This document shows, piece by piece, positions 10,842 through 62,316 of a DNA stretch of 64,000 bases. Below the pieces are notes generated by a model. It had not been told where the DNA came from. It did not search any database and worked only from the letters and a program-made list of their open reading frames with translations. The stretch is taken from the NCBI GenBank assembly GCA_029204225.1, contig CM055100.1, positions 28,658,649 through 28,722,648 of the forward strand, in the 5' to 3' direction. The position numbers were made by a program, and so were the translations under genes. This stretch comes from Diphasiastrum complanatum. Lineage: Eukaryota > Streptophyta > Lycopodiopsida > Lycopodiales > Lycopodiaceae. Numbering within the stretch: the first letter of the stretch is position 1; the number at the start of each line of letters is the position of its first letter.

Positions 10842-12752
10842 TTATTGATTGGAAATTTTAACTTTATTCCTTTCAAGTTTGATTTTTTGTAATGCTTTTT
10901 GCAAAACCAGCTTGATTCGAGGCATAAAAAGCCTTACACTCTGCCCTTGCAGATAGTATTTCTTCAAGGATGGCCAGCCTTGGGAGGCGATGATCTGCGG
11001 ATCAGAAAGCACTCTATCATGCTCGTTGTACTTCTGGCTCAAGCTGCTCTCCTGTGCAGTAATCTTATATTCGATGTAGTCAAGGCCGAGCTTCTTTGCG
11101 GGCTCTCCATAGTAAGTCAAGGCAGGATAATCTGTTCCCAGAGGAATGATCTGAATAAAAACAGTTCCAGGTCTCATGAAGAGGAGATGAGTCATCGCTG
11201 CACCATGGACGCCCATCATAACATCGCAGGAGTTCAGCAGCCTGAAGATACGCTCCAATTTGGTTGTATCAGTGGGAATGATCACTTTCACCTGAAAGCC
11301 TAATTGCTTGGCTAGAGCTATGAGTTTGGCTTGGTTTAGAATGGCTCTACTTCCTTTTCGAGCAATTAGTACAAGCTTCGGCTTCTTGGACGATCCAAAC
11401 TGGGGAACTCGCCGGCCATTATCTGCAGAGGCATAATTGCTCAATTGCCGATCATCAGATGGAATGAATGCCTGCTGAAGCATCTGCCGAAAATCCTTGA
11501 TAGATCCCACATGATCAGCCAGCAGCTTTGGATTGATTGAAAGCTCATCGTGAATTTTCAGGCCAACTATAGCTTCTCTGAAGCAGTGAACTGTGCTGTA
11601 ATCGTTGCTTAAATCAACAACAGGGTAATGGGATAGTTGTTGCAGCACTTGGCCATATTTTTTGAGCCACCATTCATGATATTCTAGGATCAGGAAAACC
11701 ACCTCTCCCTGGAGATGGTGTGTAGTGATATAAAGAGGAATCAAGCCATCGTTGAAGTCATGGTAGACGTTTCCGCTGTATCCACCTGTAGAAAAGATCA
11801 CAGCCGGAGTAGAATAGTTCACGTTGCAGTTCATAATTCCGTCAGTTGAAGCTGCTGAAACGGAAGGTGCGTACAAGCTTTCTATTGTCACTTCATCCAC
11901 GTTTTCCATCACAGCCGTCTCCCATTTGCGTGGGTAGGGCTTGACCTTCTCTACAACGTGGCTTCGATGCCTGTCTTGGCTATGGAGTTGGATGGATTTG
12001 GTCTTCATTCTCACGTCTCCTCGAACGAAGCAGATATCTGTCCTCCAGTGACTGCGATCACAAGAAATTCCCTCCATAAAGGCCGTTCTAATTTCACCTT
12101 GTTTCCCTGAGACAATCATCAACTACGAGCTTGAGAGGAAGAAAGAGAGATTGAGATTCTTTATTGCTGCTAAGATCGGCCAACAATTGAGCATATGGCA
12201 AGAAACAAGCTGGAAGAATCAAGAAGGATGTAAAGTACTTCAAAAAGCATACCTACATAATTCGATAGGAGACGATGATCCGCCGATGAGTTGTCTAGAT
12301 TATCTAAGTTCATCAGCTGTATAAGGTTGCTTGTGTTGTTCATGCTTTTATCTATTACTCCAGACTTTTCTGTGCTCCGATCTATCTCAAATGTTGTGAC
12401 AGAACTTTGTAGAAGCACCTGCAATTCATACTTGTTTTTGGCGGAAATTTTTTCGAATGCAATCTCATTCTCACCCCTAGCAACATGAATGTCATTTGAA
12501 ACTGCGATAGTTTTCAAATCACTGACAATTGGATCATTTGCTTTATTAGATGTTGCAGAAAATGGCGAATTAGAAACTGTCAATTCTGTTTGGACAAACT
12601 GTTGTACGCCAGCAACATATGGATGGCTAAATAATTTCTTCGAAGACTGCTGCTCATTCAAGGTTGCATGCGACCATCCTGTGAGCAATCGGACATGAAA
12701 CACTCGCGGATCCTCGGTCTTATCTGCATAAATTTAAGTTCAAATATTAAAC

Positions 12753-23222: not shown

Positions 23223-23870
23223 TCAGGAAATAGAATTGAAAGCATTTTTAACATCCACTTGAAGGACAACCCAATCTGGATGAAGATCCAAGGTAGCACG
23301 CAAAGCATGTATGACTGTCTTGCAACAACCAGGAGTAGCACAACCAAACTGATGAGGAAATAGGTGGTCATGAAAACTGTCATGAAGCTGAAAACCAAGA
23401 TCTCTAGAAACAAATCTGTATAAAACCTCTCCAACAGCAATGGGACGCACTCCACTGCCAGGCTTATCCAAGGCTATCAAACGAGTAGCACCAAGAATAC
23501 GAGCAATAGAAAGAGGAATACAACCACATGCTATGGAAGAGCAAACTTGAAAGAGCAAACCAAACCCGCTAGCGGAGTCATCAGGAGAAAAACAGTCAAG
23601 AAGATGCTCGAAAACCATACCAGAAGGACCCCCAGTTGACAGATGAGGGCTGCGTAGAAAAGCATTAAGAAAATGAGATTCTGAGAGCTGCAAATCAGAA
23701 TCAGGTTCAAAGTCCTCAACAAATGAGGGAAGGGAGTCATTTGCCGGTGGATGAAGAAGCTCCAAAGCCTGAAGGGTGGCAGCTGAAGGAGTAGCTGGAC
23801 TTGTAGGAGATAGAGCATGAGCTACACGAGAATGCTCACCCACTTGCCCAAGTAAAACACAGCGATGCAA
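23223..23870 (-). pseudogene. LINE reverse transcriptase, N-terminal part
   Basis: Contains the RT fingers/palm start: LIALDKPGSGVRPIAVGEVL, PHQFGCATPGCCKTVIHALR and motif A VDVKNAFNSI, where the Asp is a metal ligand. A TGA right after motif A (23223-23225) ends the frame; motifs B and C continue in the next feature in another phase. Confidence 0.8.
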
Positions 23871-25631
23871 CCGACGATGAAAAGGGGGTATAGAAATACC
23901 ATCTGAAGTCGAATCCCACTGAGCAGCAAGCGCATGACAGCGAAGGAAATGCTCTTCTTGCAGATTTTCTCAATCTCCTGACATAAAGCGACGAATCCTG
24001 TTGCGAGTTTTCCTATGACCAGCATCACCACCCCAAGGAGACAGAGGCAAACACCAGAGAGAAAAAAGCAAAAAGACATGCCAAGCTACAATATCAGAAG
24101 GGTTGGAAGCCAGATGAGACAAAGGTAAGGACAAAGCTCTCTGGACGTCTAAGCGCAAGGCAAAGAGAATGTGTGCATAAAGATGAGGACGAGGAAAACC
24201 CAAGTGAAAAGCGGTCAAAATATCAAGGGAGCGAATCCAGGTCCAAGCCGAGTCAGGTGGCGAAGTGGGAGCAGGATGAGGTGCAAAGTTGACATTGGTT
24301 AATGCGAGCTATTGACGAAAAGCAGAGCAAGCGTTATGATGGCGAGAAAGACCGGCACCTTGCACATAAAGATGACCACAACCTGCACATGGAACACGGG
24401 GATGAGAAGAGGAAGAAGGAGAAAGTTGAGAAACTAAAAGAGAGGAAGAAAGCTGGTCGTGAAGATGGGGCGGACAGTATGGCACCACCTGGCCAGAGGA
24501 AACAAGCAAGGAATCCGCAACATGACGGTGGGCTTCATGACACATGCATGAAGGGGAAGCATAGAAGGATGCTCTGAAGGGAAAGCATGTCTTTTTTCTC
24601 CACGTTGAGCAAGAGGATTGAAAACCGGGAGTTGCAAAGGATGAGAAGATTCTTGAGGAACCATATTGACAGGTAAAGATCTAGCCACTGCCTCCGAAGA
24701 TTCTAAAAATTAGTATGAAGCCTCCTTGTTGGCCAACAAGACCCTACTACGAATTCTGCAGGCTTTGCTTTTCAGTAGAATGAGTTTTCAAAGACTTACG
24801 CTAGTGACTGCCTGCCCTACAATCTGTCATGACCTATTTTTAGCTCTAACTGCTCGCTTGCTTATCCAAATTTGAAGAAATCGAGCTGTGATAGGTCGCC
24901 CTATTATCAGAAATCAGCTCCTTGATCACCACTATTGCCGCAAAGCCTTCAACTCTTTCTACTCATGACGAAATTTCCCCACAGATGTGCTGTTGATGTT
25001 GGAGAAATCACCTTCAACAAAAGCTCCTCTTACTGACTAACACGTCAAATTGGAATAAACAATGACATGCCACAGCCTGTGTGAGGACTGTTTTCTTGTG
25101 TTTTTACTTACTGGACCTGCCTGCGATGTGCCACATAGGTTTCATCACTGTCCACCATCAAAAATCAGAGTATCCATCGCTACCCACAGGCTCATATCTG
25201 CTGTCAGTGGCTCTGTTCTAGTTGATTGAAAGACAAGTAAAGTTCCGAGACTCCAAGTCTGACACCCGACTCCCAAGGTAACATGTAGTCTATTTTAAAA
25301 AACTCGAGACTCAAGGGAAGTATAAACTAGAGATGTGGGAGTACATAGATCAACTCTCGTATCTAATTAACTAGGACAAGGATGATGACGACAGATTATC
25401 CACATTGGACACATTTATTTGGCAGCAGGAGGTCCCACTGCATCGGCAAGCTGCAAGCAGAATTTGCTTCCCCTATCTTCCACGGAAGCAAAATATATGG
25501 TCGCATGTAAGTCTTCGAAAGAGTACATCTAGATTAGTAGTTTAATTGAGGAAATTGAAACACATGTGAACAGTTTTTGTTCTGTACAATGACAACCAAG
25601 TCCCTTTGATGCATGAAGTAACTAGAGAACC

Positions 25632-34386: not shown

Positions 34387-34956
34387 TTAAACAAATATTG
34401 TTATAAACAAGAATGTTCTAATAATAAAGTATCTAAAGAATAATACCTTCCATTCGCATCCTCTTGCAAAGTCCCATTCTGCGTTTGATATTTTTTGTCC
34501 CTCTTTTGTTGCCTTTTGTAGTGTGTCATGCATCCACTCTATAGTGCATTGCTTGGGCAATGGCTCAAGATCATGTGAACTTGTGGCCATGTGTCTACCT
34601 CTATTCTGTCGTTGGCACTTTCTAGACAAGGTCCTCTCTTTTTTCTCTTCTTCATATAGGTCTAACCATTTATCCATAAATCCACAATTATAAAGCATGA
34701 ATGTAGAAATTTTTTCTCGTTGGAAGCGTGCCAACCTATGGACCTTTCCCATCCCTTGAGGTTTTTCACTAGTTACCTCTTCGGCTTCCTCATCACGCCA
34801 CAATAGTGGAGCAGATGGATGTAGTTGGTGCAAAATTTCAGTAACATAAAAGAGAGATTCATGTACTAACCATCCCTCTGACATGCTACCTTCAGGCCTT
34901 GCCTTTTGACGCACAAAATCTTTTAAGACTTTCATGTATCTTTCCATAAAGAACAT
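34387..34956 (-). pseudogene. DUF4218 C-terminal part of CACTA transposase
   Basis: FFMERYMKVLKDFVRQKARP and EGSMSEGWLVHESLFYVTEI match the conserved DUF4218 pattern (ERYL..LK.YVRN.ARPEGSI.E.Y). A 66-base gap separates it from the fusion frame upstream, possibly a small intron. The rest is Arg/Glu-rich linker. Confidence 0.7.
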
Positions 34957-35022
34957 CCATCTAAAAATTCACAAATGGTTAAAAATAAGTATTTTATTTA
35001 ATGAGTTCATGTATCAATTGAT

Positions 35023-35450
35023 TTAGTTTAAATACACATGCAAAAAAAAATTTACGCACTTATACCTAGTGTGCACTGGACCAACAATAGAAACTTCTTC
35101 AACCAAGTGCACCAATAAATGCACTTGTGAGTCCATGATGGAAGCCGAAAAATATCTCTCAAACATGTACACAATCTCCACAATATCCTCATGTCTCTTG
35201 CGAAGATGCTCGTCACCAAAGGGGTTCACATCATCTGTTGCAGGACCAAATCTCACATTTCTTGACTCACTGGCAAAGCTTGGATACTCTTTGTTGATGT
35301 GTTTCCATGCAAGTGAATCTGAAGGTACCCTCATCATTCCATCCGTAGAGGTACGGTGTCCATGCCAATCCATAAGTTGTGCAAGAGATTTACAATGAAA
35401 TAAACGTTGCAATCGTGGAATTATTGGAAGATGTTTTTTGGAGTGAAGAT
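35023..35450 (-). pseudogene. TNP2-DUF4218 fusion frame
   Basis: One open frame holds the N-terminal TNP2 signature (RLFHCKSLAQLMDWHGHRTS, PSDSLAWKHINKEYPSF, VNPFG) and, 27 residues later, the DUF4218 start (DSQVHLLVHLVEEVSIVGPV). In normal CACTA transposases several hundred residues including catalytic acids lie between these. The in-frame junction points to a deletion rather than random decay. Confidence 0.7.
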
Positions 35451-36488
35451 CCGTTCAATTTTGACTCTTTTCCGTTTTGCAGGAGGGTGCCACACATCAA
35501 AGGAGATAATAGGATTTTGGGCGCCCATACGTCAGTTGGTTGTTTGCTGATTTTTCAGGTTGCAGGAAGGCGCCATTAATTATCTTCTTCAGGGCTGCTT
35601 TTAGGTCGCCCACATCCGTGTAGGTTTATCCTACTTCCGTTGGTCCGATGCTGCACTATTTTTCAGATTTGCTCCTTTGCAAGAGAGCGCCCATCTACAA
35701 GCAATTTTTATCTTTTGATTTGGCTGAAAATTTGGCTGAAAATCAGCACCCTTACTGATTTTACAAAGTGAAGATCCGCATCCTTTTGCTTGTTTCCAGG
35801 TGTCATCTCTTGTCTCAGGCATGACATTCCCTTTTGGTAGAATTTTGTTTTTCAATAGTCTGTACATGACAAAAGAAGTCATTGTAAAAAAATTATCACT
35901 AGATGTCCAGATTGTAAATTTTGTTTCAAAGCAAAAATGACAAGTAGATGAAATTTTTTTTACTCAAATAATGATGTGAGGCTTTGGTCACTCAGTCTAT
36001 ATTTGGCTTGAAGATTTAATAGAAGTAGAGAAGTCGCCAAACGAGATGTCTTTGTTCCAAGATACAATGCGATCTTTGATTCTTCTCATAATTTCTTTTC
36101 TTCTTTAGACAAAAGTGCCTCCTCATCTTGTTCATTATGTCTAGCTGCACTATTGTTCTTGTACATATCATCCAACATGTCTCCCATGACTTCAAATTCA
36201 TCATTCATTGGAAGTTCATTTTCATCGTTGGAACTTGTTTGCGAAGAAGTAGATCTAGATGAGCTAGATTCAGATGCATTAGTCTCTTAATTAATGCGCT
36301 CATCAAGTTCCATCATCTCTTTTAAGCCTTGACGTAGATGACGAGGTAATTGCTTTATATGAGGACCGTTGTATTACATTTGTCGACCATTACGAGGATT
36401 ATTGTCTCCAACGCTATATGAGGATGAAGAATCCTATATACCAAAAAAACAAGAAGTAGGTTGAAACAATGCTTGATAAACATTTCTC

Positions 36489-36508
36489 TCACCTACAGGC
36501 AGGGGACA
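36489..36508 (+). repeat. Left shard of Gypsy LTR A (before the inserted TIR element)
   Basis: These 20 bases (TCACCTACAGGCAGGGGACA) are identical to 50241-50260, which begin LTR B. The matching LTR continues at 42370 on the far side of the TIR element, so the LTR was split by that insertion. Confidence 0.75.
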
Positions 36509-36509
36509 C

Positions 36510-36546
36510 CATTAGAGCCCTTTTTGGACTCAAAAAGGGCCTCTTC
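36510..36546 (+). repeat. Left terminal inverted repeat with internal hairpin
   Basis: Begins CATTAGAG. It contains a perfect 10-bp stem (36517-36526 with 36531-36540) and a 4-base loop GACT, then CTCTTC. Beyond it the inverted similarity continues weakly (CTAATCATAATT... region). Confidence 0.9.
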
Positions 36547-36880
36547 CTTGCCTAAACAAGTTTTCTAATCATAATTAATTTAGTGCTAATCAATCCTACG
36601 TGGCACCTTTACCTTGGGTTACCATACAAGGTGAGCAAGAGTTAAGGCCTAAATGTAGGTCTTATTTTCATAGACTATTGTAGATTATTTGCATAGATTA
36701 TAATAGGCAACTAATAGGTAAGTTACAAATTACAACTAGAGTAGGGTTAGTATAGGACGACCTTTCATTGTCCTAACCACAATAGGACCCTAGGGATGGA
36801 AACTAGTATATGCCTAATAAAGCTTATATCATGGTCAGTTCACATTGAACTTTGACACCTTTTGATTAAGGTATATTGTA

Positions 36881-39614
36881 ATGTTCTACATAGATTCTTT
36901 TGGGAAATTCGACATCTTTAAGATGACAACCAAGTATCACTTACATGTGAAGTTAGAGAAGGATTATGCGACCACCAAAGCTGCATGGGGTGTTAACTTA
37001 AATCCGTATGACATGCATTGTTGGAGATTAGAAGGAAAAAAACATATTGACCTATGGGTAAGAGGTGATTTATACCCTCATAATCCACTGGTAGATGCTC
37101 CTCCTAAATTTTCTGATGTACATAGTTTGTTAAGGTTCGTTGGGGATGGTCGGAATGGACTGCTTGGCTATTGTCAAGCAATGTATTCTTGAAGAATTCA
37201 AGCTGAGACATTGGCAAATACGGCAAACATTCATATATTGAGTATGAATGACAATTTAAAGTCATTGCATGGAATAAATATGAAATTGGAGCAGGAGATA
37301 AATGGTTTGAAAATAGAGCTTGCCAGTTCTGTCGCAAAAATTGAAGGATTGCAATCTTCAATCAGTATATTTCAGAGGAAAATATATGGCTTACAACGAA
37401 AGCGTAGAGTCTCGATGGATCAGCAAGCAGAAAATGAAAACACTAAGAGACACAAACTAGAGGCTTTGGCACCAGGTTGTGGTGCCAGTAAAAGACGTAT
37501 GAGGGACACAAAAGAGTTCTTGAAAAAGACGGTTGGAAAAGATTTTATTGCCGGAAAATATATGAAACATTTTTTGAAGGGTAAAGATTTGATTAAGATT
37601 GGGGAAGATGAAACAAGTGATTCAATTCGCTTGAGAATTGCAAAAAAGCTAGTCGACAAGTTCAAGCCAAATCCAAATGTTAAAGAGATGGTGTACGCAT
37701 GTCATCAAGGAGGTGTGAGTCGCAAGGGGTACATAGCTTTGAAGAAGTATATGAAACGCTTTGACAAAAATGGGTTAAAACGCCATCAAATAGTACCTAC
37801 TTATAAACTTGTTGAATCCGCCAAACGAGAATGCAATTCGATTTTGCTCTTTGAATTAGGAGAGTTTCAACATATTGAGGATTCTTTTATAGTAACCAAT
37901 AAGAAGAAAGGACCTCCGACATGTTCTCATTATCATCAAGGCAATAATATATTCTTAGATCTGGAAAAGGTCCAAGCGATGATGATCCGACATTACGAAG
38001 TTAGAACAAATGGTAAGAACATTTATGGTGGATTTCGGTTTTCAATTGTATGCTTTTCTTCAACTAATATGTTTTAGTAATGAAATTTCTGTTTTACAGA
38101 TTGCGGAGGTAAAGTTATATTTGTTATTAAGTTGGACGAAGCAGAAATCGTAAAAGGACGTAAACTTGAATATATCACAATCACCTTGATGAATCGTGAA
38201 TTGCAACAGTTTGGCAGAAGTTATTGTAAAGAATTTAGCGTGCAATCTGAAAATCACATATGGTAGATAGCTGCATTTAAAGTTCCTAAGGAGTCTCACG
38301 ACATACTGGAGTGGCTATTTGAAAAATGTAGTATATCTAAGATAATACATGCACAAAATGAAGGCAAATTGCTCAATGTTGAAGGGGAAAGCTTTGCTGT
38401 AGAAGGGCACCTAGCTGTTGATTTGAAGACTTTGAAATGCATGTACGGTTGTGGTCTCGGTGCAAATGCAAAGAATTTTTGTATATATTGTATGTTTGAA
38501 TCTGGGCAGAACAAAAGCATTTTGAATTGCAACCAACGTCTTGCACCAAATAGGCACAATCTAGACAAAGCTTGGAGTCCTGCGTTGAACATTCCTCTCG
38601 AAAGAGTCCATTTTTGCACAATGCATGGTGAATTACGAATATTGGACAAATTATTATTTTTGCATTGTTGTTACGCATGGAACATGCAGCCCAAATCAAG
38701 AGCAGATGTTAGCATTAGAAATCTAGAGATAATTTTATCCGATATGGGATTGCACGGGGGCCACGTGAGTCTTACTAAAGACGTTGAGATGAGTGGAAAA
38801 ACGCAAGATGTTCCAGCAAAAGTTTCAATGGGTGTTGCGAAAGCGAGACACCTATTGTCAAATCATACTGCACGTGAAAACAGTGTTGAATGGGAGTACT
38901 GGAGGAAAATATGTCAATGCACAACAAATATTGGCTCAGATCCTCGCATGGCAAGTACACATGCTAAGGTTTGGCAAGCATTTGATGCCTTGTCACAAAC
39001 TATCAACAAAAACATTGTGAGAGATGAAGATTTGGATAGATACGCAAGAGAAGTCAAAACATTTACTGAATTGATGATCGATGCATGGGGAGAAACACAC
39101 ATAACTCACTATATGGTATGTGTGTCTCATATTTTTTACTTTCGTATTTATGTATTTGTAAAGATTTAAACTAATACAAATTTTCTATGAACAGCACATC
39201 TTCTATGCTCAGGGACCTTGGTATATGAAAACCTATGGATCATTAGCTATTTGGAATAGGCAAGGCATGGAAAAGAGTCATTACAGGGCAAAGGCTGCGT
39301 ATTTCAAAAATTCACGGCATGGCGGAGGAAAGGGTCTTAGCAATGCATTGGTTGAGATATTCCAATGGTTTTACATAGGAGTTTTGGGCCGAGGACACTT
39401 TCAAAACACAAGAACTGAAGAGTTGTGTTCAATGATCTCCAATTCAAATTCAGTCAGAAAGACAGCATGGCAATCCTCTAATGCTAGAACAAGGCATCAA
39501 GAATGGAGGATGTCTAGAGTCCGAGTTGGAAAGAGATGGATGCCGAGGACACCAACATCCAATGTTTTGGAAAACAACGCTAGAGAAACTACGGAAACTG
39601 ATGAGATGGAATAG
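36881..39614 (+). pseudogene. RAG1/Transib-like DDE transposase, three exons, two in-frame stops
   Basis: Exons 36881-38012, 38100-39115 and 39195-39614 join in phase (introns GT-AG) to 855 codons. Stops occur at codon 104 (TGA, 37190) and codon 433 (TAG, 38264); no frameshift. The first ATG follows an in-frame TGA. Exon 1 has a Lys-rich middle and SRKGYIALKKYMK, IVPTYKLVESAKRECN. Candidate catalytic residues are Asp390 (KLDEAEI), Asp485 (AVDLKTLK) and Glu742 (GSLAIWNRQGME). Zinc-type residues are Cys505/Cys508 (CIYC) and His717. Spacings (D-D 95, D-C 20, C-H 209, H-E 25) approach RAG1 (108, 19, 207, 25 for D600, D708, C727/C730, H937, E962, recalled). The second zinc His (RAG1 H942) is Gln722 here but His in the copy at 61152. 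Other zinc-containing DDE families remain possible. It would cut and join DNA ends; this copy is broken. Confidence 0.6.
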
Positions 39615-39878
39615 AAACAATTTATGTTGAATTGTAATTCGAATATTCCTTTGTGATAAATATTACTGCCGAATTGGATTGTTGTTATAAATAGAAATTA
39701 TTTTATTTGGTTTTACAATAATATCTATTTTTGGATACATGTCCCTCTATATAAGAGTGGGGGTTTCATTTTGTTGTCAATTCTTGCTTTGTTGAAATTT
39801 GTTTCCTCGTAATTTAGCTTGTCTTGTTCAATTAGACTACTAGTTTGCTGGTCAATTAGTGTTCTTAGTTGCATAACA

Positions 39879-41337
39879 ATGTCGTCCCCTAAAATAGAGT
39901 TGGCCAATCTGCTAGCCCCCACAGAGTTTTTAGATCAGTTAGATCGTATTTATTTTATGTTTACTGGTAGAATAGACACGCTTGCCACTCTACGGGCTAA
40001 TACGGATGCATTCACGTACGTGAGTGAGTATATAGATGAAACTTTGAAGCCTTATGCCATACAAATTCCTGGCTCAACTATCATGTAGATTCCATATAAC
40101 TTGCTTAGTTATATATGAAAAGGAGATAGACCCTTTATCGCTCGTCTCAACAAATTTATTAGTCACTTGGGTAACGATCATTACTTGGAGTGACCAAGGA
40201 TCAGCTGAAAACTTTTGATCTTGAAAGTGTAGGAAAGAAGTTTCTATCTGGTGAGATTACTGTTATTTTTTTGCTTAATGAGTTTCCAGCGACTGTGACT
40301 AGCAACAAACACAATTCTAGTGAGCAGGTGAACGATCCGGGTGAAGAGGAAGATTTATCTGCGGAGCACGAAGCAGTCTTGGCTGCGCAAGAGGAAACAG
40401 ATGCATCCACATAAGCGGAGCCAGAAGATATAGATGAGTCCGATGATGTCGTGCTTTGAATCCATGGCCTTGCTCCAATCATCATTGATGGGCAGGAGTA
40501 TGTGTTCATGCATGACTTGCAACATATTCTCGGCTTGCGAGAAGATGAGATGTTGGCAGCATTGGTAAATTTGCAGAATGGCAGTTCGACTCGACCACAC
40601 CCAGCCCGACAACACGTATGAGAATCTGATTGGGCATGACACGGACACCACCGAGCAAGCACTGGAAGGGTGCTTTCCCAATTGAAAACACTTCAACCAC
40701 CACCAGTTCAAACGAGGCCATTCGAGGTACTTGAAGGGAAAACTGCTGACGTGAAGTACAAAGGCAAAGGAATTGACCTTGCGCAAACCGAAGACATTGA
40801 TGAAGGCACCGAGGCAAGTCTGACCCAACAACTCAACTTGCGTGTGTTTGTTATGTTTGTTTGTCTTCATTATACTCATTTTGCAATAATTTGAACCAAA
40901 TGCAGGATGCAGTGGAGCTTGATGCATTTGCAATGCGAAGGGGTGGCGCTCGGGAGAAAGTTGAAGCAGGAACTCTGGACAGGTCTATGGCCCACTACAT
41001 TGGGAACTTGCCCAACAACTTTATTTTCTGCTTCAGCAACAAGTACAACCCAGATGGACAGACAGAGCTTCTTAAATGCAAAGCACTCTCCAAGCACATT
41101 GGTGAGCTGGACTTGTCACCGTCAGCGCCAAAGGCTTACTACGTCCTCATAAAAGCCGTTTTGAATGATTTCTGCCCTGGATTTGAGACCCGACTCATTC
41201 TCTCGGGTTTAATTGGCCCTTATGAGAATGAGGGAGATGCTCCTAAATTAGCATTCGAAATGTTAAAACCAGTACTATCATTAGAGAAGCGATCAGAGAA
41301 GCTGAAGTCCTCTCTGAAGGAAATGGATCAAATGTGA
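39879..41337 (+). pseudogene. ORF2 of the TIR element: unknown partner gene, broken
   Basis: Starts MSSPKIELANLLAPTEFLDQ 265 bases after the transposase stop, same strand. Coding pieces: 39879-40088; about 40190-40440 (VGKKFLSGEITVIFLLNEFP then an acidic stretch); about 40460-40620 (GQEYVFMHDLQHILGLREDE); about 40670-40813 (VLEGKTADVKYKGKGIDL); and a last exon 40906-41337 (VELDAFAMRRGGARE, IGNLPNNFIFCFSNKY). The last intron appears to be GC-AG (GAG|GCAAGT...GCAG). Several stops and at least two frame changes occur. A relative at 53446-54682 (minus) shares the REDE/REDK helix block and the VE-x-DAFA exon at the same intron position. No kelch-like repeats are visible, so I cannot call it RAG2-like. 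Function unknown. Confidence 0.5.
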
Positions 41338-41466
41338 ATAAAGATTTTGTCATTTTTTTCTTGTAGACTCTCCTAATTCTCTGTTGTCATTATATGATGT
41401 GCTTATTCATTGAATTTAGAATTTAATTTTTTTTTTTTATAAAGATTTCTCCTTCTTTTTTTACGT

Positions 41467-41623
41467 GGCGTGATTTTCATGCCAGGGCACGACCAGGGCC
41501 CGTTTGACCAAGTCAAATATCCCCCGGTCACGCCTTGGCATGATTTTCACGCCAGGGCACGACCAGGGCCCGTTTGACCTAGTCAAACGTCCCCTGGTCA
41601 CGCCTTGGCATGATTTCCATGCC
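41467..41623. repeat. 70-bp tandem repeat with internal palindromes
   Basis: Two full units starting at 41467 and 41537 and the start of a third at 41607. Each holds GGCATGATTTTCATGCC-like and TTTGACCAAGTCAAA-like palindromes, the latter a paired W-box-like TTGAC/GTCAA. It lies in the 3' non-coding part of the TIR element and may be a subterminal binding array. Confidence 0.85.
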
Positions 41624-41956
41624 ACGACATGGAAACCTATCTTAGCTACAACATGGTTAAAGAAACTACCATTCCCATAGTACTGAAAATTTTAAATCAC
41701 TGCATTCACATAGATGATACCAAAATTTTCAAATGACTGCATTCACATAAACAGTACTGAAATCTGATATCAAACTCAATCACAACAATTTGCATTCACA
41801 TAACCTGAAATTCTGCAAGATACTTGACACCAAATCTTCAGTATATTACAAATAAAATCATGTACATGATATTTTTAATTGCTCTCTCTCCTTAGCCTTC
41901 TAGCTAGGTGGAGATCCTTCGGGAGTATTGTGACTTTCTTCCCGTGCACTGCACAC

Positions 41957-41962
<6 letters not shown>

Positions 41963-42042
<80 letters not shown>
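41963..42042. repeat. (GA)n microsatellite inside the TIR element
   Basis: About 40 GA units. Confidence 0.95.
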
Positions 42043-42044
<2 letters not shown>

Positions 42045-42332
42045 ACAAAATGAGAGAGAGATGAGAGATAAAGCAATAAAATTTGAAATAAGGACTAGGC
42101 TCACTTAGGATAAGGCTGCTAGTAGATAGACAGGCTAGTTGATGCTAACTTGTAGGCATAATTATTGTTTTATCTAAGGGTGAATGTAAGGTTAATGTTA
42201 GAGGTGTACTTTGTGGGCCCACACTTGATTTAATCTGCACCATTGAATTTGCCATGTCATATGGACCATTCCCTCTCAGTTGTCAATATTTTATTGGGAC
42301 ACGTGTCGTCATTAACACTAATTATAATTAGT

Positions 42333-42369
42333 GAAGAGGCCCTTTTTGAGTCCAAAAAGGGCCCTAATG
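42333..42369 (-). repeat. Right terminal inverted repeat with internal hairpin
   Basis: Reverse complement of the left TIR with one mismatch. The internal stem is 11 bp with loop AGTC. An exact 18-bp palindrome (42316-42333) abuts it on the inner side. Confidence 0.9.
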
Positions 42370-42875
42370 TATATTTAGAATACAACATTGCAGGGTTATA
42401 ACTACTTCGAAACCTATGAGTTCATTATTGATGGGTTCTGGCATCTAACTTACGCCGTTTCCACCGACTACACAAGACCCACCCAGCCTTTCATACCATT
42501 TGGATTGCCAATGCAGTCACTCGGATCAACTAGCAGTACTAACAAACCCCCAGATCTAGATCCACCAAAAATAGAGAGAGATGAAACTAGTAGTGGTGAT
42601 CTCTCCACAGATTTCTACCTGGAGGGGTGGACGATCTAGAGAACAAAAAATCTAGGCATCAAGACCGATAGGACTGAGATTGCAATTACACCTCCTTGCA
42701 GCCGTGTCTCTAGGGGCCTAGAAAACCCTCATCGGTTGGGGAGCACAGGGTGGTTGGGATGGCCCTCGAGATTAGAAGCGACATTCCCCAATCACTCGCG
42801 TAAGGGCAGTGTGGGCCCTTCCCCTGTAGGGCTTCCTGGCGAGACCAGTCCCCTGTCAAAAATTTTTCCCAATCA
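42370..42875 (+). repeat. Gypsy LTR A, main part
   Basis: About 500 bases that match 50261-50776 closely in the same orientation, both containing an ACTACTTCGAAACCTATGAG word near the start and ending ...TCA. The match stops exactly where the primer-site-like sequence begins (42876), which defines the LTR 3' end. The 5' end is displaced to 36489 by the TIR insertion. Confidence 0.8.
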
Positions 42876-48900: not shown

Positions 48901-50240
48901 GTGCCCACCTGAAGACCGTCTTCAAGCCCATCGGAAAACTCAAACATAGTCTTGATTGCACGCATGAAGTGCATTTGTCTCTAGCTCACAAGCCCTCTGA
49001 TTCACCACTGAACTAGATCAGATCTACGCCTGTCCCCAGAGGAGTCGCTGAGTGGAGGAGGCTGCATTTGGAAGTAAATTCAAGAGGGAGTGCTACTGGA
49101 AGTAACATTTGAAAGACAGTCACAGAATGGGCACCGCTCCTCATTGAGTCCACCTTATCTGTTGTTACCTCATAACTAGGCTGTGAACAGAATGTGGGAT
49201 CGTCGTTGAATCCTCATTCCAGCACTCGAATACTATTGCATTTCGCATTTCAGAACTGCGCCATAACTCCTTGAGGACATTGCCATTCTGAGTTATTGGA
49301 ATGCGATGCTCCTGCCTTGATTGGAAATATCGGAATTATGCACCTCTGCTAGCTCGAGGAGACTGAGACATCTGAACCTGCACCGGTTCTACAAATCGCC
49401 TCAATGTATGAGTCTTGGGGGTGGTCACCTTGGAGGTGGGGCTACGTGATTTATTGGTGAGCCATGAGCTCATGACTTGGGAGGTTGGCATACCGGTCCT
49501 TTCTCCCACACATAAGGTACATGTCCCAACTTTTTGATGGTTTGGATAGCCCGTTCAATATTGATCTTTTGAGTTATGTGATTCAATTTATGGTTTGAAT
49601 ATTGTTAGTATCGTTAACATGGCATAATTTTGATTGAGTTTAGACATGGTAGTGTACGATTTTGGTTGTTTAATATCGTTGCGTTGGCATGGTTCTATCT
49701 ATCGATAAGTAAGCTGCTCGATATGCCAATTACATTGTCTCATCTTAAGATTGTGACTATCAAAGATTGGAAGTCCTAAGTGTGTATGGTGTTTGATCGG
49801 AAAAATTTACACTTGATGTTGTATTTGGCAATAAACCGGTTCTTGTATGTCATAAGTCGTAAGCTCGACCTCTTTGAAATAAAAGAGCGGGGCGTCCACC
49901 GTACGTGGTTGAAACACACCACCTCGGTTAGGGGTCATCATAGTCACTTCCATCATTGGAACTGCCTAGCGAAATACCTAGGCCTGACGCTTGGCAAAAT
50001 ACCACTGCCTACCAAACAAGGCGACGCGTATAAGTGGCACCCTCTCACTGCACAGGACTAATCATGACATTATAGTATAATCATTTGGTGATTAGTTGCT
50101 TATTTCACCCTGATCAGTTGGACACTCTAGTGACGCATTCCAAGTAAATAACAAGCAACAGACAATGACTTCATTTCATTTCAACTATGATTGTTAATTG
50201 AGTACCCCCACAGAAATCTCTATACCCCGGCACTCCACCC
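45978..50240. other. Gypsy interior beyond protease; no RT or integrase seen
   Basis: Frames at 45907-46185 and 46794-47174 are acidic and may be leftover polyprotein (NEPFDIGKMFDGVHADFPFL). From 47200 on there are an A-run near 47320, a repeated ATGGGTCCCAGCCCACC word (47366, 47490), a 30-bp tandem repeat at 48311-48374 and unassignable frames at 48578-49016 and 49780-50061. I see no RT, RNase H or integrase signature, so this is either a large gag-only derivative or a composite with other insertions. Confidence 0.45.
48311..48374. repeat. 30-bp tandem repeat, two copies
   Basis: TGAGAGGATGGGAGAGAGCA begins both copies (48311 and 48341), followed by the same CATTTGAGAG. Confidence 0.85.
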
Positions 50241-50776
50241 TCACCTACAGGCAGGGGACATTATATTTAAGATACAACATTGCGGGGTTATAGTTACTTC
50301 GAAACCTATGAGTTCATTATCGATGGGTTCTGGCATCTAACTTATGTCGTTTCCATCGACTACACAAGACCCACGTAGCCTTTCATACCATTTGGAGCGC
50401 CAGTGCAGTCACCGGGATCAATTGGCAGTACTAACAGACCCCCAGATCTAGATCCACCAGAAATAGAGAGAGAGAGAGAGATGAAACCAGTAGTGATGAT
50501 CCCTCCACAGATTTCTACTTGGAGGGGTGGACGATCTAGAGAACGAAAAATCTAGCCATCAAGACCAGTAGGACTGAGATTGCAATTACACCTCCCTACA
50601 GCCGTGTCTCTGGGGGTCTGGAAAACCCTCATCGGCTGGGGAGCACGGGGTGGTTGGGATGGCCCTCGGGATTGGAAGCGGCATTCCCTAATCACTCGCG
50701 TAAGGGCAATGTGGGCCTTTCCCCTGTAGGGCTTCCTGGCGTGACCAATCCCCCGTCGGAAATTTTTCCCCTATCA
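50241..50776 (+). repeat. Gypsy LTR B
   Basis: Direct repeat of LTR A (36489-36508 plus 42370-42875), including the first 20 bases intact. It shows the LTR without the TIR-element insertion. Similarity ends at TATCA (50776), where the next sequence (AACTATCTGAG) is unlike the primer site of LTR A. Confidence 0.8.
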
Positions 50777-51267
50777 AACTATCTGAGGTGGGAAAGAGTT
50801 TAGATCGAGGATACAAGAATTCTCTTGTCCAAGAAACCTCAGCCTCCTGCTAGCGAAAAAGTAGGCGACATAGGAAAATTTGCTGATGTCTTGGTTCAAG
50901 ATTACAATGTGGTTACGGTAGTCGAGAAAACTGTAGAAGAGGTGCCACTTGAAAGTACAATGATGGCCCTCGGGATTGGAAACGACATTCCCTAATCACT
51001 CGCGTAAGGGCAGTGTGGGCCCTTCCCCTGTAGGGCTTCCTGGCGAGACCAATCTCCCGTCGGAAATTTTTCCCCTATCAAACTATCTGAGGTGGGAAAG
51101 AGTTTAGATAGCGAGGATACAATAATTCCCTTGTCCAAGGAACCTCAGCCTCCTACTAACGGAAAAGTAGGCGACACAAGAGAATTTGCTGATGTCTTGG
51201 ATCAAGATTACAATGTGATTACGGTAGTCGAGAAAACTGTAGAAGAGGTGCCACTTGAAAGTACAGT
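50659..51267. repeat. About 304-bp tandem duplication spanning an LTR end and a coding tail
   Basis: The unit beginning ATGGCCCTCGGGATTGGAA (50659) recurs at 50964. Each unit contains the last part of LTR B, AACTATCTGAGGTGGG and a coding-like tail. The duplication therefore occurred after LTR insertion beside that tail. Confidence 0.85.
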
Positions 51268-51322
51268 GGCTACTCAAGAAAAAGAAAAAGATGTAAATGA
51301 CCTTGATGATTTTTGGGAATAA
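51092..51322 (+). CDS. Acidic C-terminal coding tail next to LTR B, unknown
   Basis: Open frame (SLDSEDTIIPLSKEPQPPTN, VITVVEKTVEEVPLEST) ending in the acidic DVNDLDDFWE then TAA. The frame is open upstream through the LTR end without a convincing start. The first duplicate copy has a small deletion that shifts it. It is probably the last exon of a host or captured gene; family not recognised. Confidence 0.35.
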   Translation: MGKSLDSEDTIIPLSKEPQPPTNGKVGDTREFADVLDQDYNVITVVEKTVEEVPLESTVATQEKEKDVNDLDDFWE

Positions 51323-53445: not shown

Positions 53446-54682
53446 ATTGTCGCAGCATCTGAGAAAATTTGCTATGATGAATGCAAATCTCTTTATTTAC
53501 AAAGCACTTCAAATAATTGGATAGGGATGAATCCCTTTGTCGTGATCCCTGGCCTTCCCTCAAATATCCCTGCCTTGTTGCAAAGGCATCCACCTCAACA
53601 GTAGCCTATAAAATATGAGCAAAGGTCACATGTCTTGAAAAACAAAATAACTATATTTGAATAAAAATCTCATTAAGATAAAACCAGATTTACCTACCAG
53701 ATCACGCTCATAAGCTTCAATAAGTGCAGCAATATGTAGATCATGACCAGCAACAATGATCGTCGAAGCACTGGATGGACTAGTTTCCGAAGACTGTGAC
53801 ACATATCTGCTTCGGATTTTCAGAAATTCCTCCTCACCAGGCAAATTTGCCTAGTATGCCCTGCTTTCAGACATGATTAACTGAAGTGCTTCAGTTCCAT
53901 CCATCCATTCATCTCCGTCTTTGTAATCAATAGAAGCACGTAGATCATCATCACCGTCGAGATCTATGAAGTCCCCGAATATTTTGATGAAATTAGACAA
54001 AATTGATAATATTTTGTCCTCCCTCAGATCAAGAACATCTCCAACATCATTAAGTGAGAGGTATGCGACACTATTCATGTAATACACTGGCAAATCGAGG
54101 AGAGTCTTGGTTTTGTCATAAGGAAGAAATGGACAATGCATGAGACTCGGCTGGGTCGTACATTGATGCCAATCTTGCCTCCTCATCAACACCCAAGGCA
54201 TCATCAACAATAGCTAACTCTGATATCACAAAATCAGTTGATGATGAGGCACCCTCAATGCTAAGCCTCGAAGTTCTTGTCTCCTCAGGAATAAGAGCAA
54301 AAAGATAAAACACAAAGCCCATGCCTTCTTGCAAAAAATGACATGATCGATTGTGCTGGTCACAATGGACCACACGTTTGAAATCACTCACGATTTTCGT
54401 GAATCGTCGGTTGTGGCTTGGCTACGAAGATGGTTGGGCAAGTACTAGGTCATAGATATGGATGAATCGTAGATTATCCATTATCAACATATACTGATTC
54501 AGACTATCATAATACTCTTTATACAACACTGGAAAATAGAATTTATGTTCTGATCCAAACCTCTCATTATCAAAAGACATATTGAAATACGTCTTATAGT
54601 GACCTATGTAGTTACCAACACCGGATTCAACGAGGAAGGCGTGCAACGCAAAATCAAAAGTATTAGAGGATGAGGCGGCCAT
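53446..54682 (-). pseudogene. ORF2 relative at the second locus (divergent from the Ulp1 gene)
   Basis: Starts MAASSSNTFDFALHAFLVES (54682). The frame runs to 54116 with a TAG at 54422, shifts, then runs 54210-53698 (YMNSVAYLSLNDVGDVLDLR, EDKILSILSNFIKIFGDF) with a TAG at 53851. A GT-AG intron (53697-53606) leads in phase to a last exon (53605-53446) beginning ATVEVDAFATRQG. The LREDK helix block and the VEVDAFA exon, with the same intron position, match ORF2 in the TIR element (LREDE and VELDAFA). It lies about 7 kb from the second RAG1-like copy on the opposite strand. Function unknown; damaged by two stops and one frameshift. Confidence 0.5.
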
Positions 54683-57179: not shown

Positions 57180-58377
57180 AACTTCCTGTCAGAATGATAT
57201 CATCAACATAAATAAGAAGGATGACAATATCTTTATCAAAAAACTTGACATATAAGGAAGGATCATAGTTACTAAGATTAAATCCTAGTGACTCAAGAAA
57301 GGTGTTAAGTCGAGAATACCATGACCTTGGGGCTTGCTTTAATCCATATAAACTTTTGAAGTGCAAGCAAACTTTTTCCTCATCATGGATAAACCCAATA
57401 GGTTGATCCCATTTAGAAATGCATTAGAAACATCTAGTTGAAGAATTTGCCAATTGAAAAAACAAGCAAGAGAAATTATGATTCTAATTGATACCATCTT
57501 TGCAACTGGGACAAAGGTCTCCTCATAATCAAGTCCATATACTTGAGCAAATCCTTTAGCACAAAGCCTAGCCTCGTACTTGTTGATTGTGCCATCTTGA
57601 TTATACTTGACTCGAAAAACCCATTTGCAACCAATGGTATGCTTGTTGGATGGAAAATCCACAAGTTCCCATGTATTATTGGCCATCAAAGTATCATATT
57701 CTTCCTTCATGGCAAGGTACCATTCCTTTGAGTTGATAGCATCATATACATCCTTCGGCTCCTCATGAGAAATAAAATAGGCACAATTAGTGGAGTTGAT
57801 TTCCACTTGCTTTCCTCTATCTTCATAGGTAAGCCTTCTAGGCTCGGATCTTTCTCTTTGAGATCTCCTTGGTGAAAAAATTCGAGGTGACTCCTGCTCA
57901 AATCTCGGCCCCATCTCTCCATGATAATCTTCAAGAGTGATGATTGGAGTATCTTTGTGAGAGTCTCTGAACTCGGCCTTCTCAAGAATGTATTTTTGAT
58001 TTTCATGGAATATCCCATCTCCACTCTCAATTGTAGGTGAGGTAGAGGGAACATAGACCTTGTAAACTTTCTTGTTGGATGCATATCCAACCATGATCCC
58101 TTTAACAGAATTAGGATCATCTCTTTTCCTTGTTTCCAAGGGCATATTAACAAAGCAAGTACAACCAAAAAATCTAAGGTGATCTACCTTAGGTTTTTTC
58201 TAAAACAAGACTTCAAAAGGTGATTTTCCAGCAAGAGCATTGTGAGGTAATCTATTGCACAAATTGTTTGCACAATTTATAGCTTCACCCCAATATTCAA
58301 TAGGCAAAGAAGCTGCTACTCGTATTGCTTTAACACACTCACATAAAGATTTGTTTTTCCTCTCAGCTACTCCATTT
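57180..58377 (-). pseudogene. Copia-2 integrase tail and reverse transcriptase, truncated
   Basis: Carries the integrase C-terminus (GIMVGYASNKKVYKVYVPST) and RT palm motifs: WVFRVKYNQDGTINKYEARL, AKGFAQVYGLDYEETFVPV, LQLDVSNAFLNG, a shift, then YGLKQAPRSWYSRLNTFLES and IYVDDIILTGS (catalytic Asp pair at 57199-57210). Coding similarity ends right after that motif. Confidence 0.8.
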
Positions 58378-59105
58378 TGAGATGGAGAATAGGCACAAGA
58401 AAATTCTCTCTTTATTCCTTCACCTTCACAATAATTATGAAACTTGTTGGAGATATATTCACCTCCTCCATCACATCTTAAAGCTTTAACTTTGCAAGAA
58501 AATTATTTTTCTACATAAGCGTTGAAGATAAGGAAGTGATAAAAAACCATAGCCTTTCAAGAAAGTAGAGACAACCAAGTGTATTTAGTAAAGTCATCAA
58601 TAAAGGTGACAAAACATGTTGCACCACCAATACTTTTCGAAGAGGAAAAATGTACATCTGAATGTATGAGTTCCAATGGACAAGTAGTCTTTATAAAAGA
58701 CTTTTGATATGGCTTTCTGTGTGACTTTGCAATGGCACAAGCCTCACAAGGCTTCAAATCTTTAGAAAGAGATTTTGGAAGACCAATAGCCTTCTCCTTC
58801 TTAACCATAGAAGACATAAATGTAAAGTTAGGATGTCCCAACCTTCTATGCCACAGCTCCTCCTTAGATAACAAAACAACTTCACAAAGGTTTGCATTCT
58901 CATAAGAATTCAACTTAAAATTTCCACCACATCTAGTTCCATAAGCAAGGATCTCATCTTTTCTCTTGATAAAACAAGTATTAGTGTTGAACTTTACATC
59001 ACAACCATTATCAAGCAACTTTCCCACACTAATTAAGTTCTCTGTAAGTTTTGGAATGAAAAGAACATTAGAAAGTGCAAGAACTTTTGAAGAAGCAAGT
59101 TTCAA
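58378..59105 (-). pseudogene. Copia-2 integrase
   Basis: The frame 59105-58557 has the pre-integrase LWHRRLGHPNFTFMSSMVKK, the zinc CEACAIAKSHRK and the core start LIHSDVHFSS, FVTFIDDFTKYTW. After a shift near 58557 the core continues (GGGEYISNKFHNYCEGEG, YSPSQNGVAERKN), so the D-D-E residues are all present but in two frames. Confidence 0.75.
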
Positions 59106-59171
59106 TGGAATGTTGCCAATTCCTTCTATTGGACACTCATGATCATTAGTTGTGTAAATAGATCTTTTGAG

Positions 59172-60190
59172 TCATTTGAAAGGTAAGATTGAGTCAAATG
59201 ACTCATTTGAACAGCACATATGTGAAGAGGCTCCACTGTCTATGTACCAAGCTCCATTTTTCTTGAAAGGTGATGAAGAAAAACTGGACACCATAAGTGA
59301 TCCTTCTTCATCACTTGCAACAGAATCTTCTTCAATCTCTTTGGAGAGATTAGCTTGCTTGAGTTGGTTTTTCTTCTTAAAGCAATTAGAGGCATAGTGC
59401 CCCTTTTTGCCACAAAAGAAGCACTTCACTTTCTTTTTCTTGGTTTTTGAGTTAGAGGGATGAGATGTATCATCCTCTTCACCATCTTGATCTCGATCTT
59501 TGGCTTTGTCTTTGTTGTATGCTTGAGAGAATTGGTTCTCACTCCTTCCTTTCTGCTTGCCTTTGACAAAGAGGGCTTTGTCACTTCCACCATGTTCAAG
59601 TTTGTTCATCCTGGTGAGTTTATAGCTTTGTCTAGATTCTTCAGAAATAAGAATTCCTTGGAGAGTTTCTAGATTAGGTAACTCCTCCTTAATAGCAAAA
59701 GACTGCACAAGATTATCATAGTCATCTCTCAAGCCATTCAGTATGACTTGAACTAGCTCAACTTGGTTAATGGTAACACCAACACATGAAAGCTCTCTAT
59801 GTAAATCTTTAACTCTCAGAACATAGTTAGATGCACTCTCTTCACTTCTTTGGAAACTTTGGAAAATCTGATTCCTAAGAGTGAGTATTCTAGAAGTATT
59901 CTATGAGATGGTCTTTAGTGCATCCCAAGCTTCTTTGGCTGTAGTGCAAGATCCTATCTCTCTCAAAATTTCATTAGATACATTCATCTTAATGAAATGT
60001 AGAGCCATTCTAGCTCTCTTCTTATATTAGAAATTTCAACCTGTGCTTGAGGCTCCTCCTCAACACCAAGCACAATATCCATAACATCTTGGAGAATCAA
60101 AACAGACTCCATTTTTAACTTCAAAATTGAGTAATTAGAAGTGTTTACTCTTTCACTGGCTTCTAGAAGATATCCTCCCTGAGATGCCAT
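59172..60190 (-). pseudogene. Copia-2 gag and protease
   Basis: Gag starts MASQGGYLLEASERVNTSNY; a shift near 60020 and a stop near 59900 break it. The later frame (59732-59172) ends the capsid, then a zinc knuckle CFFCGKKGHYASNC (59382-59423) and the protease site WYIDSGASSHMCC (about 59240), with Asp-Ser-Gly intact. Confidence 0.8.
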
Positions 60191-60959: not shown

Positions 60960-61151
60960 TGACAAAATTTCCAGAATTCACATGTGTGGGGAATGTCCAC
61001 AAGAGTGACTGATCTTAATTAAGCTTTGTGATTGGCACTATGACCTGATTCTAGATTGATCAACAAAATCTAGTTTAGAAGAAATGGCTGATCCACAATC
61101 TAGCATGCTAATCAATAGAATGTAATTCTATTTTGGATTTTTAGTAAAACA
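60960..61151 (-). repeat. Candidate 5' LTR of Copia-2 (192 bp)
   Basis: On the minus strand it begins TGTTTTACTAAAAATCC and ends TTTTGTCA directly before the primer site. TG...CA ends fit an LTR; the length is short. There is no second copy to confirm it. Confidence 0.5.
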
Positions 61152-62316
61152 GAATATCCAGAGATAATTAAGAATCATATGAGCGACCCACCACTCAATG
61201 TTCTTGAAATAGGTGATTTTAAGGTGGAAAGGCATTCGGCTGGAGACCTAAAGTCATTGAAGTGCATGTTCAACGTCTCACATGGAGCAAATTCAAAACA
61301 TCCATGTCTCTATTGCATGAAAATTACACATGACATGTCAAAGAGTACGAGAGTTTCAAGGGATATAGAAGATCCGACTTGGAAACCAGTATTACCGATT
61401 TCGCTTAAAAATGTTCACATTTGTACACTACATGGAGAGGTTAGAATTATCGAAAAATTGATATACCTTCATATTTGGTTTGCTTGGAATACTAAGCCAG
61501 AGTCATTAGTCAAAAAGGCAATAGCTCGATTGAAAGAAGTTTTATCAAATGCGGGACTTCATAAAGGACACGTTAAAATACAAAAGGACGAGAAGCTTTC
61601 AGGGAAAACGGGAAACATCCCATGCAAACCAAGTATAGGAGGATCCAAAGCTCGTCGTTTCTTATCAAATCATTCTGAAAAACCAACTAAAATCCAGTAC
61701 TCAATTTGGATAGATGTACTCAATGCCACAAAGGATTTTGTAGAAAAAGAAACAACGAGGATTAAAAAAGTTGAAGTCTAGACAAAGCTTGACAACATGG
61801 TCAAATTGCTCAGAAAAGATAAACTATCTGATACTGATGTCCTACTAATTGAGAAATCAACAATTGAGTTTGTGGATGCAGTTAAAGACGTCTGGGGTGA
61901 ACATCATATTACACAATATATGGTAAATCTCTTTTCAATGTAACTAACTCTTCGATTTATAATCTCATTGCACATATGCTAAATTTAAAATGATTAATAT
62001 GACAATATTTGTATCTCTGATATTGTAGCACATTTTACGACATCATGCATCATTTTGTGCAAAAGCTTACGGCAGTCTAAGTATTTGGTCATCACAAGGA
62101 ATGGAGAAATCTCATTGGCAAGCCAGAGCAGCATTTCATCGATATACACACTATGGTGGAACATCTCAAAAAAATAGTTACATCATCCAACTATTTCAAT
62201 GGTTCTACAGGCGTATTCAAATCCAATATAAAACTAGATCAACAAATTATCAGAAATTCAGAAAGGCGTGCAAATTTATAGATGAAAATAATATTGATGC
62301 AAGACTCAACCCATAG
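61152..62316 (+). pseudogene. RAG1/Transib-like transposase, partial second copy
   Basis: Exon 61152-61922 and exon 62029-62316 joined by a GT-AG intron at the same position as in the copy at 36881. There is one in-frame TAG (61779) and no shift. Conserved blocks: AGDLKSLKC with CLYC (second Asp and zinc Cys pair), VHICTLHGEVRIIEKLIYLH, KARRFLSNHS, HITQYMHILRHH, GSLSIWSSQGMEK. The His pair is H-x4-H, and the distance from the first His to Glu is 25 residues, as recalled for RAG1 H937/H942/E962. The part with the first catalytic Asp is missing, because the gene starts abruptly at the Copia-2 LTR edge. Non-functional remnant. Confidence 0.6.

Follow-up and report, generated by a model that had tools for sequence, protein, structure and literature searches.

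The window analysed here, a 64,000-nt stretch of contig CM055100.1 from the lycophyte Diphasiastrum complanatum, contains a decayed DNA transposon of 5,860 bp (36510-42369) that is bounded by terminal inverted repeats (TIRs) and whose empty site is known. Between its ends lie a transposase gene and a second gene; a diverged copy of the first and a weak relative of the second are found elsewhere in the window (Table 1). The spliced reading of the transposase gene (36881-39614) joins three exons into 855 codons, with in-frame stops at codons 104 and 433, so this copy, hereafter copy 1, is dead as read. The first-pass annotation had proposed a RAG1/Transib-like transposase on the strength of six residues, D390, D485, C505, C508, H717 and E742, and all six are found at those places in the spliced reading. 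Outside the element, a long open reading frame with a glycosyltransferase 61 (GT61) domain (10845-12122, minus strand) is probably a host gene; together with the CACTA and Copia elements of the window, it is in keeping with a plant genome.

Table 1. Positions of the parts of the element, its empty site and the related copies within the window
Feature	Position	Strand	Description
Left TIR	36510..36546	+	37 nt; starts CATTAG; 97% complementary to right TIR; outer border from empty site
Transposase exon 1	36881..38012	+	Coiled-coil-like stretch followed by Transib-like S...Y / P-T-Y..V..AK..C block; in-frame stop, codon 104
Intron 1	38013..38099	+	GT..AG; supported by reading frame
Exon 2	38100..39115	+	D390, stop codon 433, D485, C505/C508, VHFCTMHGE with H553, KAR motif
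Intron 2	39116..39194	+	GT..AG; same position in copy 2
Exon 3	39195..39614	+	H717, GSLAIWNRQGME with E742, stop
Second gene	39879..41337	+	Interrupted by stop codons and frameshifts; Pfam finds no domain at cutoff
Subterminal tandem repeat	41466..41624	.	70-bp unit with internal palindromes; 3' part of element
Right TIR	42333..42369	-	37 nt; ends CTAATG
Empty (pre-insertion) site	50240..50770	+	Second copy of flanking repeat; flank match on both sides
Weak relative of second gene	53459..54063	-	Matched by two second-gene pieces in collinear order (tblastn, E 0.003 for each)
Diverged transposase copy 2	61125..62208	+	Exons 61125-61922 and 62029-62208, intron 61923-62028; one in-frame stop

The borders of the element can be read directly from its empty site. 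The left flank (36488-36508) is identical to 50240-50260 at 21 of 21 positions, and the right flank (42370-42870) matches 50262-50770 at 89% over 501 bases, with a single C/T difference between the left and right flank matches at the empty site. Because the joined flanks match this site, the element represents a real insertion with borders at 36510 and 42369 and ends that read CATTAG...CTAATG. The left homology extends for just 21 bases, which places the insertion close to one end of the flanking repeat. A tandem duplication of about 305 bp (50658-51268) starts inside the repeat that bears the empty site.

No target-site duplication is visible when the element is compared with the empty site at 50.24 kb, a comparison that involves one old copy. 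The absence could reflect a blunt cut of the target or a later loss of the duplication in an old copy, and a single copy does not decide between the two. An alternative border of the ESTA type, with a TA duplication at GAGCCC/GGGCCC, was rejected because the empty site reads GGGGACA-T-TATATTT and lacks the CAT and ATG bases that this border requires.

The two TIRs, whose starts read CATTAGA and CATTAGG, are complementary at 36 of 37 positions. Each also carries an internal dyad with the potential to form a hairpin. For the left TIR, the dyad GCCCTTTTTG/CAAAAAGGGC gives a single-stranded DNA fold of -11.3 kcal/mol with a z-score of -5.0, and the right TIR gives a z-score of -5.7 (200 shuffles in each case). 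The palindrome-rich 70-bp repeats in the 3' part of the element are perhaps subterminal protein-binding sites, a putative role.

Copy 2 of the transposase shares 39% identity with copy 1. No 5' part of this copy, and thus no counterpart of D390, was found within the window; all five of the listed residues that can be compared (D485, C505, C508, H717 and E742) are invariant. Copy 2 keeps both histidines of the H(3-4)H motif (H-I-L-R-H-H). The second of these has been lost from copy 1, which has A721/Q722, a loss on which the first-pass annotation was silent. Additionally, the intron of copy 2 (ATG|GT...AG|CAC) interrupts the protein at the same residue as intron 2 of copy 1, which provides independent support for that intron position. 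Over 325 codons, the two copies differ at codon positions 1, 2 and 3 by 0.47, 0.41 and 0.62, respectively, and where the residue is the same in both, 24 of 36 four-fold sites are different. This excess of third-position and four-fold changes points to an old divergence under past protein constraint. Pieces of a Copia-type element (RVT_2, gag and zinc knuckle; 57342-59900, minus strand) lie slightly more than 1 kb upstream of the truncated copy 2.

The second gene survives in short pieces of 53-177 residues, none of which matches a Pfam family at the cutoff (one chance match has E 0.19). The longest piece finds nothing of note in PDB, and no RAG2-type domain, which in RAG-like transposons carries kelch repeats, is recognised in any of these short pieces. 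Two of the pieces match the weak relative at 53459-54063 in order, which suggests that the transposon family probably includes the second gene.

A scan of the transposase against the whole of Pfam likewise returned nothing at the cutoff; NADH-UOR_E, Sas-6, ERp29 and other models all fell below it. The RAG1 core model (PF12940) was absent at E<=1 and at 10 with the HMMER filters on. When the same model was run on controls, RAG1 itself scored and a provisional Transib sequence reached 24.5 of 25 bits. The CACTA/EnSpm domains Transposase_21 and DUF4218 are absent from the transposase and present in the neighbouring CACTA, a plant CACTA/EnSpm transposase remnant at 34390-35454 (minus strand) that lies roughly 1 kb outside the left TIR. 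Sequence searches of PDB found nothing beyond chance for the whole protein, most of exon 1, exon 3 or a profile of the two copies, and Rfam gave no match at the gathering score. A weak match of exon 1 to one PHROGs family of unknown function (E 0.0026) was taken as noise. Relatives of the transposase were found neither in viral contigs nor in prokaryotic genome contigs, as is expected for a plant element. AlphaFold, run on exon 2 alone with a two-row alignment, gave a mean pLDDT of 34.4. Elsewhere in the window, a stretch at 23226-23969 (minus strand) weakly resembles reverse transcriptase (RVT_1, E 4.8e-05, below the cutoff).

Individual reference proteins provided a more direct comparison. 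These comprised HzTransib, RAG1 and BbRAG1L together with a provisional Transib and a provisional plant CACTA sequence, and the blastp E-values given here refer to these five subject sequences only. The human RAG1 core sequence was likewise provisional, and its numbering was computed through alignment to the mouse RAG1 chains in PDB. This alignment confirmed the RAG1 residues to which the element had originally been compared (D600, D708, C727/C730, H937 and E962) and also places H942. The spacings stand as well: from the first Asp to the second, on to the CxxC pair, from that pair to the His and from the His to the Glu, copy 1 has 95, 20, 209 and 25 residues, and RAG1 has 108, 19, 207 and 25.

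Residues 687-745 of copy 1 align with RAG1 904-965 (E 0.004), and copy 2 aligns with RAG1 in the same register (E 0.008) and with the C-terminus of BbRAG1L (E 0.023). Transib matches are weaker. In copy 2, the stretch from TLH to ARRF matches the provisional Transib (E 0.054), and this copy reaches E 0.38 with HzTransib; in copy 1, the P-S-Y..V..AK..C block matches the provisional Transib (E 0.14) and the PDB sequence of HzTransib (E 1.3). The provisional plant CACTA gave no in-register blastp match, and its best alignment, with an E-value of 0.52, lies elsewhere.

The block around E742 had been said to follow the RAG1 pattern position by position, and it is indeed the best ungapped 44-residue match to RAG1 in both copies. 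It scores 45 in copy 1 and 48 in copy 2, where the next best matches score 24 and 22 and the maxima among 200 shuffles of each copy are 43 and 46. The exact segment used by the first-pass annotation is shifted downstream by three residues; its scores are 38 and 43, values reached by 7 and 2 of the 200 shuffles. The resemblance is beyond chance for the set of features as a whole and less so for the single motif.

Caution regarding the single motif also comes from phage sequences. In a viral collection of 2.9 million contigs, the pattern GS...W..QG.EK occurs in two contigs, W..QGMEK in five, its F version in none and VH.CT.HGE in two. As candidate relatives these matches were rejected, since all are unrelated by their reading frames; for two of the nine contigs, tblastn with both copies gave matches at the motif with E-values of 0.024-0.073. 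Two phage open reading frames with YGSLPIWLQQGVEKWN, which mimics the E block, appear terminase-like by inspection (contig L008, 730-768, minus strand; contig L009, 4765-4803). Such look-alikes show that, when the search is large enough, chance by itself can produce the E block, which is a warning against claims made from a motif only. RAG1 was presumably chosen as the comparison after the block had been seen. The block by itself is therefore not proof of a RAG1-type protein, and the case is strengthened instead by the register of seven residues described below and by Transib blocks that the first-pass annotation had not used.

To compare whole domains, a profile of copy 1 residues 261-800 and copy 2 was aligned by hhalign. 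Against RAG1 it scores 33.1, which none of 400 column shuffles reaches (maximum 27.7), and against a set of HzTransib, the provisional Transib and RAG1 it scores 28.2, which none of 40 shuffles reaches. In the latter alignment, made at a loose threshold, D390, D485, C505, C508, H553, H717 and E742 pair with HzTransib D109, D208, C224, C227, H258, H392 and E419. All of these HzTransib residues other than H258 align with RAG1 D600, D708, C727, C730, H937 and E962; H258 was picked as the conserved His of the TLH block and is aligned with no RAG1 His. All seven residues are in register, and shuffles give between none and five, with five seen in 2 of 200.

The corresponding controls define how far these scores can be taken. 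CACTA gives a weak hhalign score of 25.0 at the E block, which 2 of 150 shuffles reach, and HzTransib alone scores 17.8, which 34 of 150 reach. Among 65 decoys taken from real open reading frames, two outscore RAG1, both of them phage frames picked by the motif itself, and contigs selected by motif are the source of all five best-scoring decoys. With 1,002 shuffled or reversed controls, an hmmsearch using a RAG1/Transib profile ranks copy 2 first and copy 1 thirtieth (rank 30), and a Transib-only profile ranks them 4 and 47, respectively; copy 1 is not separated from shuffles by these profiles.

Two papers provide the framework for placing the element: a 2025 description of the CMCT clade, whose author we take to be Kojima, and a 2015 study of the Transib and Chapaev groups, presumably by Kapitonov and Koonin. 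As described in the former, the CMCT (CACTA-Mirage-Chapaev-Transib) clade comprises EnSpm/CACTA, Mirage, Chapaev, Transib, Plavaka, ESTA and Lanisha, most of which have CA..TG ends, and its members leave target-site duplications of 2-5 bp (PMC12730594). According to the same source, all CMCT lineages and RAG1 have in common a C(2)C and an H(3-4)H motif that lie between the second Asp and the Glu (PMC12730594). The motifs listed in the first-pass annotation correspond to this signature of the clade, so the set is not diagnostic of RAG1/Transib as had been supposed. The 2015 paper unites Transib, TransibSU, Chapaev and Chapaev3 in one superfamily, and in its relevant passages the hosts named for elements of the Transib and RAG1-like kinds are animal species (PMC4411706). 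Transib in bryophytes, lycophytes or ferns is not mentioned among the literature matches listed.

The element shows the motifs and the ends of this clan. C505/C508 and H717 are present in both copies and the second His in copy 2 only, and the CATTAG...CTAATG termini lie at borders fixed by the empty site. By similarity, membership is suggested at the level of the pairwise and two-copy profile comparisons. Beyond the spacings, the element shares with RAG1 and RAG1-like proteins (PDB 6oem, 6b40) the order of the D-D-E residues and an ITxYxH...GS(I/L)..W...G.E block with an AR motif ahead of it. Overall similarity to RAG1 is near noise, however, and the element lacks CDGMGD at the first Asp and GNK after the Glu; its partner gene is without a recognised RAG2-type domain. 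With Transib (HzTransib, PDB 6pqn) it shares the S...Y / YPSY..V..AK..C block upstream of the first Asp, the TLH and ARRF blocks and a CxxC after the second Asp. It differs in the distance from CxxC to His, which is 165 residues in HzTransib and 209 in the element, and in lacking LSEEAxEARNK at the Glu. ESTA elements of rust fungi also have a transposase whose similarity to RAG1 emerges by profile methods, and they carry the CMCT motif set (PMC12730594). The ESTA families described there are fungal and leave TA duplications (PMC12730594), whereas no TA duplication is seen at the empty site of our element.

In total, we consider it likely that the locus holds the decayed copy of a land-plant DNA transposon of the cut-and-paste type with two genes, and that the product of the first is a DDE transposase from the CMCT clan, which also includes RAG1, with a RAG1-like catalytic block. 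The TIRs, the empty site, the conserved copy 2, the blastp and hhalign results, the seven-residue register and the CA..TG ends all support this placement. Homology to RAG1/Transib-type transposases is, from sequence comparison, probable and not proven. In the same comparisons, the catalytic block is nearer to RAG1 than to the single plant CACTA sequence, which gave no in-register blastp match and a lower hhalign score than RAG1. Several observations speak against the placement: the absence of a Pfam or PDB match, the hmmsearch ranks of copy 1, the phage decoys and the shuffle-level score of HzTransib. To these may be added the missing second His of copy 1 and the lack of a duplication of the kind that CMCT elements are described as leaving.

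What survives of the original proposal is a transposase gene, located in a TIR-bounded transposon, whose best match among a few references is to RAG1/Transib-type proteins; its assignment to Transib proper is disfavoured by the missing duplication and the termini. The further suggestion that a land-plant family of this kind would be new is weakened, because CACTA is a clan member of plants and Lanisha is probably another. The element is thus best regarded as an unusual relative in a clan already known from plants, and it does not define a novel type of system.

Within this preferred reading, two sub-cases deserve consideration. The element may belong to Lanisha, here in the present plant, which we hold to be quite possible at somewhat less than an even chance. 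Maumus, McDaniel and Carey, who proposed that lineage, are said to be moss geneticists, and Lanisha reportedly comes from moss. Lanisha was proposed in Repbase Reports in 2020, and the CMCT description counts it as a lineage of the clade that resembles EnSpm (PMC12730594). The CA..TG ends of our element, like its C(2)C and H(3-4)H motifs, would suit such a lineage; the likeness is at the level of description, and nothing speaks directly against it.

More tentatively, the element may represent an undescribed plant CMCT lineage, separate from both CACTA and Lanisha, whose TIRs are palindromic and whose insertion leaves no duplication. The failure of any Pfam model to match at the cutoff and the RAG1 match of the E block favour this reading, as does the lack of a visible duplication where 2-5 bp are described for the clan. 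However, absence from the curated Pfam collection is weak evidence. A bolder version, which we judge unlikely, is a land-plant RAG1-type lineage that stands apart from CACTA, Lanisha and Transib and is characterised by two genes, hairpin-forming palindromic TIRs and duplication-free insertion, in which strand transfer of the RAG1 type would be combined with a blunt or otherwise unconventional cut of the target.

The remaining explanations depart from our preferred CMCT placement. Improbably, the transposase could belong to another DDE superfamily (hAT, Kolobok, MULE, P or KDZ), and similar catalytic spacing could have misled the first-pass annotation. Zinc-binding insertions after the second Asp are widespread in eukaryotic DDE transposases, similarity scores to RAG1 are low and the E motif has its look-alike in phage reading frames. 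However, the whole-Pfam scan found no model at the cutoff even though Pfam covers hAT, MULE and P, and several RAG1/Transib blocks occur in order. A Transib proper or RAG1-RAG2-like element that reached plants, as first suggested, would account for the P-T-Y..V..AK..C and TxH blocks, the RAG1 match of the E block and the residues in register, but is very doubtful given that the one copy has no 5-bp duplication, that its termini read CATTAG where a Transib TIR opens with an RSS-type CAC heptamer, that PF12940 is unmatched, that the second-gene pieces have no Pfam family at the cutoff and that HzTransib alone scores at the level of shuffles.

If the element is a CMCT transposon of the kind we favour, its mechanism may be outlined as follows. 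D390, D485 and E742 would bind two metal ions to carry out two-metal DDE cutting and strand transfer, and C505/C508 and the His residues would form a zinc-held insertion domain. Dimers of the transposase are predicted to bind the palindromic TIRs and to cut at the CA/TG ends, probably via a hairpin on the flank as in RAG1 and Transib. The second protein may have served as an accessory DNA binder or as a regulator.

If the element proves to be Lanisha, the value of the locus is narrower and consists of one two-gene copy with defined borders and of a record of its host. The clean empty site yields exact termini, which make the family searchable in plant genomes, and the absent duplication becomes a testable oddity. 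RAG1, which assembles antibody genes in animals, is derived from a Transib-type transposase. A plant element with a RAG1-like catalytic block would broaden the sampling that is required for rooting the CMCT clan and for asking at what point both the zinc-held insertion and the hairpin chemistry appeared.
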